NCBI GenBank assembly: GCA_002863125.1
Contig: PKEB01000004.1
Span: forward strand, 62,001 to 126,000
Length of the DNA: 64,000 nucleotides
Origin: Flavobacteriales bacterium
GTDB taxonomy: Bacteria > Bacteroidota > Bacteroidia > Flavobacteriales_D > Sanyastnellaceae
Direction: 5' to 3'
In this document: piece after piece, positions 5,972 through 10,173 of the stretch
Layout of the letters: every line of letters starts with the position of its first letter
How positions within the stretch are numbered: position 1 is the stretch's first letter
Translations under genes and position numbers: made by a program
The notes under the pieces: generated by a model
The model's input: the letters and a program-made list of their open reading frames with translations, nothing else
What the model was told of the DNA's origin: nothing
Database searches by the model: none

Positions 5972-7369
5972 ATGAGTGGTTTCCGGATTGAAAAAGACAC
6001 CATCGGCGAGGTCAAGGTGCCGGCAGACGCCCTGTGGGGCCCGCAAACCGAGCGGTCCCGCAACAATTTTAAAATTGGTCCCAGTGCCTCGATGCCAACA
6101 GAAATCGTCGAGGCGTTTGCCTATTTGAAAAAGGCCGCTGCACTGACCAATGCGGAACTCGGGGGCCTCGACCAGAAGAAATGCGATTTGATTGCCCAGG
6201 CATGCGAAGAAATCATCGCTGGACAGTGGGCCGATCAATTCCCGCTGGTGGTTTGGCAAACCGGTTCAGGGACACAATCGAACATGAACATGAACGAAGT
6301 GGTAGCGAACCGCGCCCACCTCATCAACGGCGGTGAACTCGGGTCAGGCGACAAGCCCGTTCACCCCAACGACGACGTTAACAAATCCCAATCCTCGAAC
6401 GATACCTTCCCCACGGCCATGCACATCGCGGCCTACAAGATGATTGTTCAAACCACCGTGCCCGGCATTGAGCGGTTGCGCGATGCGTTGCAGGCGAAAG
6501 CCGCAGCTTTTGCCGATGTCGTGAAAATTGGCCGCACCCACCTGATGGACGCGACGCCATTAACCTTGGGACAAGAATTCAGCGGGTATGTGGCTCAATT
6601 GAATTTTGGTTTGAAGGCCCTCAACAATTCCATGAGCCACCTCGGTGAATTGGCGTTGGGCGGCACCGCGGTCGGCACGGGCATCAACACGCCGGAGGGG
6701 TATTCCGAGCGTGTTGCGCATCACATCGCGACGTTGACGGGACTCCCCTTTGTCACGGCGCAAAATAAGTTCGAGGCACTCGCTGCGCACGACGCCATCG
6801 TCGAGACCCACGGTGCCCTCCGTCAATTGGCGGTAAGCTTGAATAAGATTGCCAACGACATCCGTTTGATGGCGTCTGGCCCGCGTTCGGGCATAGGCGA
6901 ACTGATCATTCCTGCGAATGAACCTGGGTCGAGCATCATGCCTGGCAAGGTCAACCCTACGCAGTGCGAAGCCATGACCATGGTCTGTGCGCAGGTGATG
7001 GGCAACGACGTCGCGGTAACGGTCGGAGGTGCGCAAGGCCATTACGAGCTCAACGTCTTCAAGCCCATGATGGCCCGGAACATTTTGGAAAGCGCCCGCC
7101 TTCTTGGCGATGCCTGCCATTCGTTCAGCGTTCATTGCGTCGAAGGCATTGAACCGAACCACCAACGCATCGAGGAGCTGGTGCAAAACAGCCTCATGCT
7201 CGTGACCGCGTTGAACACAAAAATCGGGTACTACAAGGCCGCTGAAATTGCGAACAAAGCGCATACCGAAGGGACCACCCTCAAGGCGGCGGCGATGGCA
7301 ACGGGCTATCTGACCGAAGCCGAGTACGATGCGTGGGTGGTGCCCGGTGATATGACCGGGAAGCGGTAA
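5972..7369 (+). CDS. fumC: Fumarate hydratase, class II
   Basis: Interconverts fumarate and malate in the TCA cycle; iron-independent homotetramer. The protein is 465 residues, the normal length. It carries [14 protein letters not shown] (about 98-111), [16 protein letters not shown] (about 187-202) and the superfamily signature [11 protein letters not shown] (about 319-329). It begins five bases after prfB and is probably cotranscribed with it. Its stop is directly followed by the stop of convergent manC. Confidence 0.97.
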
Positions 7370-8476
7370 TTACTTCTGTTTGCCGGCCTTCATCTGGGTG
7401 ACCAGCTGCTTGATCCACTGTTCATCCGCCTTGGGGCAAATGAGGAGCGCATCCTCTGTATCAACCACAATGAAGTTATCGAGCCCGCGCAAGGCGACCA
7501 GCTTTTTGGACTTGCCAGCGTCGCCGACGATGACGTTGCCACTGGCTTCCGTCGCCTCGAGATCGACTCCGGCCGTTCCGTTTCCGGAGCCGTCCAATGG
7601 CAGCTTCTCGTGCAGCGAGCCCCAAGTACCGAGGTCGCTCCATCCGAAATCAGACAGCACAACGGCCACGTTGGGGGCTTTTTCCATCACGCCGTAGTCG
7701 ATGGAGATGTTCTCGCATTCTCCGTAGATGCCGCGGATGGTGGCGGATTCGCGGTCGGTAGCGAAGTCGCTTCTGTGCTCTTCAAACAGCGCTTGCATTT
7801 CAGGCAAATGCGCCTCGAACGCTTCGGTGATGTTTTGGAGGCTCCAAATGAATATCCCCGAGTTCCAATAGAAATCGCCTGAAGCGAGGAACTGTTCGGC
7901 CAACTCGAGCTGCGGCTTTTCGGTGAAGGTTTTCACCATCCGAATGCGCTCATCTCCGGCGTTGGGTAAGTCTTCGAATTGAATGTAGCCGTAGCCGGTG
8001 TCGGGACGTGAAGGGTGAATGCCCAGCGTCACGAGGTGGGTGGTTTCGCGCGTGTGGTCCAAGGCCACGTTGGCGATTTCCAAGAACTCGTCCTCTTTTA
8101 GAATGAGGTGATCCGATGGCGCGACGATCACCGCTGCTTCAGAGGCGGCGTCTCCCGCCTTGTTGGCGATCCAATGGTTGGCGTAGGCAATGCACGGTGC
8201 GGTGTTTCGCATGAACGGTTCGCACAATGTGTTTTCGCTGGGCAACTGGGGCAGGTGTTCTGCGACCAACCCGCGGTACCGCTCTTGGGTGACCACGAGG
8301 ATGTTTTCAGCCGGGACGAGTTGCGACAAGCGGTCAAATGTCATTTGAATCAACGAGCGACCGGTGCCCAGAATATCAAGGAACTGCTTCGGGCGGGACT
8401 CCTTGCTCATGGGCCAGAACCGACTTCCGATTCCGCCGGCCATGATGACGGCGTAGGTGTTTTTGTGGGCGCTCAT
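7370..8476 (-). CDS. manC: Mannose-1-phosphate guanylyltransferase
   Basis: Makes GDP-mannose from mannose-1-phosphate and GTP for surface polysaccharides. The 368-residue protein is the single-domain form without the phosphomannose isomerase part. The nucleotidyltransferase signature GGIGSRFWPMSKESRPKQFL sits near residues 14-33. FTEKP and the YWNSGIFIW segment that shape the sugar site follow further on. Its ATG overlaps the stop of a small lipoprotein gene (ATGA at 8473-8476), so its translation is probably coupled to that gene. The symbol reflects function; local naming may be cpsB. Confidence 0.94.
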   Translation of the reverse strand: MSAHKNTYAVIMAGGIGSRFWPMSKESRPKQFLDILGTGRSLIQMTFDRLSQLVPAENILVVTQERYRGLVAEHLPQLPSENTLCEPFMRNTAPCIAYANHWIANKAGDAASEAAVIVAPSDHLILKEDEFLEIANVALDHTRETTHLVTLGIHPSRPDTGYGYIQFEDLPNAGDERIRMVKTFTEKPQLELAEQFLASGDFYWNSGIFIWSLQNITEAFEAHLPEMQALFEEHRSDFATDRESATIRGIYGECENISIDYGVMEKAPNVAVVLSDFGWSDLGTWGSLHEKLPLDGSGNGTAGVDLEATEASGNVIVGDAGKSKKLVALRGLDNFIVVDTEDALLICPKADEQWIKQLVTQMKAGKQK

Positions 8477-8643
8477 GGTTCAGCTTTCCATGACTGCGGA
8501 GCCTCTTCAACGGCATTTGAAGGGGGCTGCGTTTCTGACCATTGTGGGCAGTTACAGTCGCGGTGGCCGCGTTGTGACCCGCACGCAGAAAGCATCAAGG
8601 CGATGCTGAGCAGGCACAAAGGGTGAAGGAGTTTGACAGACAT
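8473..8643 (-). CDS. Small 56-residue lipoprotein coupled to manC
   Basis: A short gene read directly from the sequence: MSVKLLHPLC..., with a hydrophobic stretch and a lipobox LSAC-G, so Cys21 would be lipidated. The mature part is only 36 residues and has two more close cysteines followed by PQWS (DCNCPQWS, residues 29-36). Support for a real gene: ATG with a promoter box TATTTTCG six bases upstream, a proper lipoprotein signal, and an ATGA stop-start overlap with manC. The role is unknown. Small lipoproteins with CP-aromatic motifs occur in Bacteroidota, but I cannot confirm that this belongs to a named family. Confidence 0.7.
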   Translation of the reverse strand: MSVKLLHPLCLLSIALMLSACGSQRGHRDCNCPQWSETQPPSNAVEEAPQSWKAEP

Positions 8644-8649
8644 GCCCCG

Positions 8650-8657
8650 CGAAAATA
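8650..8657 (-). promoter_or_regulatory. -7 promoter box of lipoprotein-manC
   Basis: TATTTTCG on the minus strand, one mismatch to TAnnTTTG, ends six bases before the lipoprotein ATG. It is 12 bases from the divergent mlaE box. Confidence 0.45.
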
Positions 8658-8681: not shown

Positions 8682-9419
8682 ATGCGCTGGATGTATCACA
8701 TTGGCCGCTACATGCGGTTGTTGGCCAAGAGCTTTCGAAAGCCGGAGAAGTTCAGCGTATTCAAAGACTTGTTGGTGACAGAATTGGAGTCCATTGGCCT
8801 TCAATCTGTGGGCATCGTAGCGCTGCTTTCCATTTTTATGGGAGCTGTCATATGCCTGCAGACTGCCCACCAAATTGGCGGGTGGATTCCGGTCTACACC
8901 ATAGGCTTCACGGTGCGTCAGACGATGATTTTGGAGTTTTCGCCCACGCTCATCCCGGTCATCTTGGCCGGAAAGGTTGGCTCCAACATTGCTTCGCAGA
9001 TCGGTACGATGCGCGTCACGGAGCAAATCGACGCCCTGGACATCATGGGGGTGAACAGCGCGAGCTATTTGATCTTGCCCAAGGTGGTCGCGGGGGTGTT
9101 CATCGTTCCATTTTTGGTGGTTTTGAGCATGGTGCTGGGTGTCGGAGCTGGTGCTTGGATTGGCGTGGCCACGGGCCTGAGCCCCTTGGCTGATTTTGAA
9201 TACGGCATGCAAGTCGACTTCCGGGTGTTTGACGTCGTGTATGCACTGACCAAAACGGTGGTTTTCGGTTTCATCCTAACGAGCGTCTCCGCTTACCACG
9301 GCTATTTCGCAGAAGGTGGCGCCTTGGAAGTGGGAAAATCAAGCACCAAGGCGGTGGTGTGGTCCGTTGTCATCATCATGGTGTCCAACCTGGTGCTCAC
9401 TCAAATGCTGTTGAATTGA
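8682..9419 (+). CDS. mlaE: MlaE-family ABC transporter permease
   Basis: Inner-membrane permease of an MCE-type lipid transporter that moves phospholipids between the membranes. The 245-residue protein has about five hydrophobic segments and the family's central motif EFSPTLIPVILAGKVGSNIA with IGTMRVTEQIDALDIMG (about residues 84-126), which contacts the ATPase. The ATPase gene follows after one base. The substrate-binding MCE protein (MlaD) is not in this window. The symbol marks family membership; exact substrate and direction are inferred. Confidence 0.9.
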   Translation: MRWMYHIGRYMRLLAKSFRKPEKFSVFKDLLVTELESIGLQSVGIVALLSIFMGAVICLQTAHQIGGWIPVYTIGFTVRQTMILEFSPTLIPVILAGKVGSNIASQIGTMRVTEQIDALDIMGVNSASYLILPKVVAGVFIVPFLVVLSMVLGVGAGAWIGVATGLSPLADFEYGMQVDFRVFDVVYALTKTVVFGFILTSVSAYHGYFAEGGALEVGKSSTKAVVWSVVIIMVSNLVLTQMLLN

Positions 9420-9420
9420 C

Positions 9421-10173
9421 ATGATTGAGTTGCAACACCTTGAAAAATCATTTGGCGATCACCACGTCCTCAAAGACGTCAGTGCCACCTTCGAGCGCGG
9501 CAAGGTCAACTTTGTCATCGGCAGAAGTGGCAGCGGCAAAAGCGTCATGACCAAGTGCACCGTGGGCCTCATCGAACCAGACCAAGGACGGGTATTCTAT
9601 GATGGCAGGGATTTCACTTCCATGAGCCAGAAGGAGCGCAAAGTTATCCGGCAGGAAATCGGGATGCTTTTTCAAGGATCAGCCTTGTTCGATAGCATGA
9701 CCGTCCAAGAAAACGTCGAGTTCCCCTTGCGCATGTTCAGTGATATGTCGGACGCGGAGCGGCGGGACCGTGCAGCCGTATGCTTGGAGCGGGTAGAGCT
9801 AGCCGATGCGAGCACGCGTTTCCCCGCGGAATGCAGCGGTGGTATGCAAAAGCGCGTGGGCATCGCCCGGGCCATTGCGATGAACCCCAAGTACTTGTTT
9901 TGCGACGAGCCCAATTCCGGGCTGGACCCACAGACGGCGATTGTCATCGATAACCTGATTTCCGACATCACGGCGGAGTACCAGATTACAACCGTTGTTG
10001 TTTCACATGACATGAACAGCGTGATGGAAGCAAGCGACACCATTCATTTCGTGCACCAAGGCAGCATATGCTGGCACGGCAATCGAGAGGGGTTGCTCGA
10101 AGGCGGCGTGAAGGAATTGGAAGACTTTGTGTTTGCGAGCGACTTAATGCGAAAAATCCGGAAGACGGTCTAA
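9421..10173 (+). CDS. mlaF: MlaF-type ABC transporter ATP-binding protein
   Basis: Cytoplasmic ATPase partner of the preceding permease. In 250 residues it shows Walker A GRSGSGKS (34-41), the Q-loop at MLFQGSALFDSM, the ABC signature C-SGG-MQKR at 138-144 and Walker B with D162-E163 (FCDEPNSGLDP), plus the switch His in VVSHDM. One base separates it from the permease. The next gene starts five bases after its stop, so three genes probably share one transcript. Confidence 0.92.
   Translation: MIELQHLEKSFGDHHVLKDVSATFERGKVNFVIGRSGSGKSVMTKCTVGLIEPDQGRVFYDGRDFTSMSQKERKVIRQEIGMLFQGSALFDSMTVQENVEFPLRMFSDMSDAERRDRAAVCLERVELADASTRFPAECSGGMQKRVGIARAIAMNPKYLFCDEPNSGLDPQTAIVIDNLISDITAEYQITTVVVSHDMNSVMEASDTIHFVHQGSICWHGNREGLLEGGVKELEDFVFASDLMRKIRKTV

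Follow-up and report, generated by a model that had tools for sequence, protein, structure and literature searches.

The window analysed here, a stretch of 64,000 nucleotides from a contig of a Flavobacteriales bacterium, contains a short open reading frame between manC and an mlaE-mlaF gene pair, and this locus raises the question of whether so small a frame is a gene and, if so, with which of its neighbours it works. The initial annotation had described a 56-residue ATG frame encoding a lipoprotein that is translationally coupled to manC and would be the first gene of the manC transcript. The frame was found as described, on the minus strand, which that annotation did not give, together with the lipobox LSAC, a mature part of 36 residues counted from Cys21, the sequence DCNCPQWS (residues 29-36) and a stop codon overlapping the manC start as ATGA (Table 1). 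The -7 box placed six bases upstream is TATTTTCG, one mismatch from TAnnTTTG. The peptide has the basic n-region, the hydrophobic h-region and the lipobox ending in Cys by which bacterial lipoproteins are generally recognized, and its designation as a lipoprotein gene is borne out by family conservation and the lipobox, lipidation itself being predicted. Taken as a whole, the reading of a conserved and constrained lipoprotein gene stood, and the tie to manC held for some lineages only. The lipoprotein ATG and the mlaE start codon are separated by 38 nt. The best NCBIfam match of the manC product was TIGR01479 (271.9 bits, below the cut-off of 372.95).

Table 1. Positions of the lipoprotein gene, its sequence elements and the neighbouring genes in the window.
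Feature	Position	Strand	Evidence or remark
Small lipoprotein ORF, 56 aa, ATG at 8643	8473..8643	minus	Full sequence MSVKLLHPLCLLSIALMLSACGSQRGHRDCNCPQWSETQPPSNAVEEAPQSWKAEP
Lipobox LSAC, residues 18-21	8581..8592	minus	Sequence; Cys21 is the predicted lipidation site
C-N-C-P-Q-W motif, residues 30-35	8539..8556	minus	Cys30, Cys32 and Pro33 invariant in alignments A1 and A2
ATGA overlap of lipoprotein stop (TGA) and manC start (ATG)	8473-8476	minus	Sequence; same overlap in 7/20 genus genomes
Sigma-A type -7-like element TATTTTCG, 6 nt before ATG	8650-8657	minus	Same position in 20/20 genus genomes
manC, mannose-1-phosphate guanylyltransferase, 368 aa	7370..8476	minus	PF00483 and PF22640 over cut-offs
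mlaE-type permease, divergent	8682..9419	plus	PF02405 MlaE, 204.9 bits
mlaF-type ABC ATPase	9421..10173	plus	PF00005; NF008809 MlaF, 165.7 bits, below cut-off of 441
fumC, convergent with manC	5972..7369	plus	

Judged by lipobox criteria only, the frame does not stand out from chance: eight lipobox-type small ORFs were present in the window, and 20 dinucleotide shuffles gave a mean of 9.7 (range 2-15), as expected of a chance open reading frame. The ORF is real, and it was judged so because of its conservation, not because of the lipobox criteria. Of the 22 genomes of the window's genus, 20 yielded manC, which was preceded by the lipoprotein in all 20; start, motif and place were kept in these genomes and across the class-wide sample. 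The pN/pS ratio, calculated from 21 pairs among the seven closest genomes, was 0.44 for the whole frame. It was lowest (0.15) in codons 18-36, from the lipobox to CPQWS, and higher in the signal peptide (0.68) and the tail (0.61). The same pairs gave 0.85 for the +1 frame and 1.74 for the +2 frame; the antisense frames gave 0.89, 0.51 and 1.95, one of which (0.51) is also low, and manC gave 0.09. Conservation in relatives and codon-level constraint, the two checks that the initial annotation had named, thus both came out in favour of the gene. A chance frame was rejected on the strength of the conservation, and we give that explanation virtually no credence.

The peptide belongs to a family that is spread across Bacteroidota, and gene finders can easily miss a member of only 56 residues. 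The family pattern is a lipidated Cys, a basic arm and C-x(1-2)-C-P-x-W. Two alignments were compared, one of 23 rows within the family (A1) and one of 38 rows across the class (A2). The lipobox Cys (Cys21) was present in 23/23 and 38/38 rows, respectively, and this residue, the downstream Cys pair and the Pro were the only positions invariant in both, with Met1 also invariant in A1. Among 106 distinct motif-bearing members, the Cys pair was CxxC in 79 and CxC in 27, and the aromatic residue of the following P-x-aromatic was W in 92, F in 13 and Y in one. The linker between the lipidated Cys and the Cys pair contained 412 K/R vs. eight D/E among 911 residues in these members. Profile tallies of 294/299 genomes (E <= 1) and 341/396 genomes (E <= 0.01) were not taken as counts of the family, since a lipoprotein signal peptide is enough to produce such matches. 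At one locus (L222:1990-2270), two tandem family lipoproteins, of the DCPTFS and QCPTFS types, lie between mlaE and sprT. Another locus (L302, G138:C22) encodes, away from mlaE, a different small lipoprotein that has KCPAYS close to the Cys and is perhaps a second, related type.

Database searches placed the peptide in no existing family. The window peptide had no Pfam match at E <= 1 and nothing over cut-off in NCBIfam, no Pfam or NCBIfam model took any of the family queries over its cut-off, PHROGs yielded no convincing family, and matches among PDB sequences were to signal peptides only. One member matched the NCBIfam model of a chryseobasin-related peptide (E 0.0012). A literature search of open-licence PMC papers found none whose title or abstract describes a CPxW lipoprotein family. 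AlphaFold2, run with 18 sequences, gave a mean pLDDT of 72.9 and a pTM of 0.34, with a single helix at residues 6-25 corresponding to the signal peptide; the mature part was unstructured (pLDDT 62-69), so that a docking site is without structural support in this model. Because the prediction consists of a signal helix and an unstructured remainder, the mature part is taken to be a short linear motif and not a domain.

In the window's genus, the lipoprotein gene probably comes first in a transcript shared with manC, as the initial annotation had proposed, because a -7-like box lies 6-7 nt ahead of its ATG in all 20 genomes. The sequence TA[TC]TTT[TC][GA] was found at this distance from an in-frame ATG in 20/20 genomes and exact TAnnTTTG in 9/20 (upstream sequences were read by eye; for L053 and L054, the ATG counted was one upstream of the automatically chosen start). 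A geometry of -12 to -5 has been described for such elements (PMC6847099), and a start site about 2 nt before the lipoprotein ATG would follow from it. Short leaders are described as unusual, with 5.5% leaderless in F. psychrophilum (PMC9723704). Among 52 order-level relatives, whose genomes are not all independent, exact TAnnTTTG was found within 40 nt upstream in 27 and at 41-150 nt in seven, and 11 occurrences were 4-7 nt away. The stop codons of manC and the convergent fumC abut without a spacer at 7369/7370 of the window, and the predicted transcript therefore comprises two genes.

The spacing between the lipoprotein gene and manC is close in several lineages. In the window's genus (g1), the position of the lipoprotein stop ranged from +4 to -15 with respect to the manC match; where the exact ATGA overlap was not seen (13 of 20 genomes), the stop preceded that match by 0 to 15 nt. 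The interval before the match was 12-29 nt in the relatives g18, g14 and g7. In g20, the lipoprotein frame overlaps manC by 61-69 nt in a different reading frame (12/12 loci checked, e.g., L060, L066, and L133), so the tail of the lipoprotein is encoded inside the manC start region and close coupling is an actual arrangement in at least two lineages. The overlap noted at the outset is present, and translational coupling is inferred only from such overlap or close spacing. The C-terminal residue of the lipoprotein is often Pro (19/20 in g1), and several g12 relatives have RP at this place. Among manC loci of named Bacteroidota records (n = 80), 25 had a family match of at least 15 bits upstream of manC, the weakest of which (L188) was without the motif. 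Adjacency to manC belongs to some lineages; the commoner neighbours class-wide are a divergent mlaE-mlaF pair and sprT. An ATGA overlap or a spacing of at most 15 nt in 20/20 genus genomes, and the long overlap in every g20 locus checked, would suit a leader peptide that is itself incidental and acts on manC through the coupling of its translation. The peptide motif, however, is conserved where manC is not adjacent, and constraint is strongest from the lipobox to CPQWS and not in the tail on the manC side. Conservation of the motif away from manC led us to reject a manC leader as the main role, which we regard as highly improbable.

The recurrent full gene order was mlaF-mlaE <> lipoprotein > sprT > (aminotransferase) > manC, with the SprT-like (PF10263) and aminotransferase assignments confirmed on one representative each. 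In 60 order-level loci, which were hand-picked from the listed hits and examined with 3.4 kb flanks where contigs allowed, MlaF was found in 47, MlaE in 46, SprT in 44 and ManC in 30; MlaE was immediately divergent in 41, and 14 had no MlaE in the stretch examined. These counts include two loci (L258 and L302) of a weak or other small-lipoprotein type. In the best 30 class-level loci (1.5 kb flanks), the corresponding numbers were 25 for MlaE, eight for SprT and seven for ManC. At L250, L251, L252, and L256, MlaE was close but not divergent, in other orientations. The linkage to mlaEF survives rearrangement.

Because these loci had been found through the lipoprotein, the search was also begun from mlaE. 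Of 99 class genomes, 98 had a match and 90 were examined; among the other eight matched genomes, five regions were unfetched and three had weak, paralogue-like matches only. A frame with a strict lipobox and C-x(1-2)-C-P-x-[WFY] was present within 1 kb upstream in 31/90, starting 38-157 nt from the MlaE match, and a family HMM match of at least 20 bits in 35/90; all were divergent. The same strict rule found no frame in 59 control tiles of the window or in 271 tiles of the relatives' loci, and 55/90 MlaE upstream regions had no such frame. The linkage is therefore strong where the gene exists and absent at that spot in 55/90. Linkage to mlaE-mlaF is one of the features expected of a component of a Bacteroidota Mla-type transporter. 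Many class genomes had two MlaE groups, one close to that of the window, with E values of about 1e-55 or better, and another, more distant one matching at about 1e-20 to 1e-31; the search for the lipoprotein covered the surroundings of the close group.

Two natural losses bear on the choice among these neighbours. The sprT gene was not detectable in the window's genus (0/22), and the same query found it in all 20 genomes of family f9 (E <= 2e-34). Its absence from the genus probably left the lipoprotein abutting manC, and the lipoprotein evidently does not depend on sprT, since it is kept in a genus that lacks that gene. The f9 genomes kept sprT and manC in 20/20, with mlaE beside them in 15/20, and had no lipoprotein at that spot (0/20); neither mlaEF nor sprT, therefore, depends on the lipoprotein. 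A partnership with the SprT-like metalloprotease, which is encoded directly downstream in many relatives, would account for the presence of SprT in 44 of the 60 order-level loci, often as the next gene. The two losses weaken this explanation, as does the occurrence of SprT within 1.5 kb in only eight of the 30 class-level loci; moreover, SprT-like proteins are generally regarded as cytoplasmic. We consider a SprT partner very unlikely. One relative (G385, locus L360) encodes a small acidic lipoprotein within 1.5 kb of sprT, with an NF050142 match just under the cut-off, and the CPxW lipoprotein was not found in that genome; the acidic protein is possibly another lipoprotein at a related spot.

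The reading that we tentatively favour, while holding it to be somewhat short of probable, is that the lipoprotein is an outer-membrane-side accessory of a lipid transporter made of MlaE, MlaF and an MCE protein, in genomes where MlaA and MlaC are not detectable. Searches for MlaA and MlaC each gave 0/20 in the window's genome and 19 relatives, with positive results in the E. coli and Caulobacter controls. The window's genome has one MlaE match and one MCE protein, whose gene is on another contig beside that of a probable amidase, which we take to be one from its sequence and general knowledge. The gene remains beside mlaEF in the genus that has lost sprT and at loci where manC is not close (ManC in seven and MlaE in 25 of the 30 class-level loci), which supports the transporter role. 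MlaABC is described as mostly proteobacterial, the MlaD beta-barrel as absent in the FCB group, and the MlaEFD core as occurring in Bacteroidota without the proteobacterial partners (PMC10665443).

In the proposed mechanism, the signal peptide would be cleaved at Cys21, which would then carry the lipids, giving a small outer-membrane lipoprotein that probably faces the periplasm. Surface-exposed lipoproteins of Bacteroidota have been reported to carry an acidic export signal just after Cys+1 (PMC5080379). The linker of the 106 members is basic, unlike these signals, and a periplasm-facing orientation is therefore probable, although a signal of another type is possible. The short basic arm would remain close to the inner leaflet; the C-x(1-2)-C-P-x-W head, in which a disulfide probably links the two Cys, would serve as a short docking motif. 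In the window's genus, the lipoprotein gene would start a transcript running on into manC. A bolder form of this proposal is that the family supplies a hitherto unrecognised outer-membrane part of the MlaEF-MCE lipid pathway in Bacteroidota. The protein would be a lipid-anchored adaptor of peptide size, standing in for MlaA and MlaC by means of its basic membrane-proximal arm and oxidised docking motif, and would be kept or lost by lineage; we regard this form as rather improbable.

Several findings count against the transporter role. Gene linkage is not function, and the absence of the frame from 55/90 mlaE regions and from all 20 f9 genomes, 15 of which have mlaE next to sprT, means that MlaEF works without the lipoprotein. 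The location of the MCE gene on another contig, the nearly equal frequency of sprT as a neighbour at the order level (44 vs. 46 of 60), the 14 of 60 loci without MlaE and the single low antisense pN/pS weigh in the same direction. Alternatively, the protein may be a genuine lipoprotein of the envelope that is linked to mlaEF, sprT and manC because the gene order has been inherited, with no shared pathway behind it. The block of mlaFE, sprT and manC is conserved in f9 without the lipoprotein, its members are housekeeping genes of unrelated function, and no pathway is known to unite Mla, SprT-like and ManC proteins, all of which favour this explanation. It fits less well with the persistence of the mlaE linkage through orientation changes and as sprT and manC drop away (25 vs. 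eight and seven of 30), and we judge it unlikely, if quite conceivable. A periplasmic thiol or metal device, in which C-x(1-2)-C binds copper or zinc or exchanges disulfides near the membrane with no tie to lipid transport, would explain why only the lipobox Cys, the Pro and this Cys pair are invariant, and the switching between CxC and CxxC (27 and 79 of 106) would be natural if the exact loop were less important than the pair itself. Genes for redox or metal functions were not recurrent among the top neighbour clusters, however, and no significant metal-binding family was found in NCBIfam, leaving this device a doubtful candidate.

The family was compared with known small lipoproteins and, by these comparisons, falls outside the LptM, PG1828, MlaA and spanin families. 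LptM (formerly YifL) of the E. coli LPS translocon is likewise a tiny outer-membrane lipoprotein and a model for a short lipoprotein assisting a large envelope machine, but it belongs to a different machine and phylum and is described as conserved in Enterobacteriaceae (PMC10567701). The LptM model NF047847 reached 14.8 bits (cut-off 27.7), over residues 1-22 only, which is the signal peptide. MlaA (PF04333) of the proteobacterial Mla system would have the same role, serving an MlaEF-MCE transporter as its outer-membrane-side lipoprotein, but is a full protein family (a 195-position model) that was not found in 20/20 relatives, and the window peptide had no PF04333 match. The PG1828 family (NF050142) also consists of short Bacteroidota lipoproteins; the best family member scored 24.7 bits (cut-off 50), with the match covering residues 1-33 of 45, and the window's genome had no match at E 0.001. 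The strongest NF050142 loci encode proteins that are mostly rich in Ser, Asp, Glu and Ala, with C-x(1-2)-C-P-x-W in 0/12. Two other types of small lipoprotein, an Rz-like spanin (phrog_3198) and the Cor exclusion protein (phrog_1119), were weakly matched by 3/38 members each, the window member matching phrog_3198 at E 0.00023. The context of a phage spanin, a lysis cassette with an inner-membrane partner, was not seen here; the neighbours are mlaEF, manC, fumC, sprT and similar chromosomal housekeeping genes.

If the proposed role in lipid transport is right, the lipoprotein would work like MlaA or LptM in a loose sense, as a lipoprotein that helps an envelope machine. The family also illustrates that a short frame can be widespread and yet be without a Pfam or NCBIfam model. 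Whether the missing outer-membrane partners of such systems have been replaced by unrelated proteins has been raised as an open question (PMC10665443). A conserved gene for a lipoprotein, lying divergent to mlaEF in one third or more of the genomes sampled across the class, offers a concrete, deletable candidate for the missing partner.
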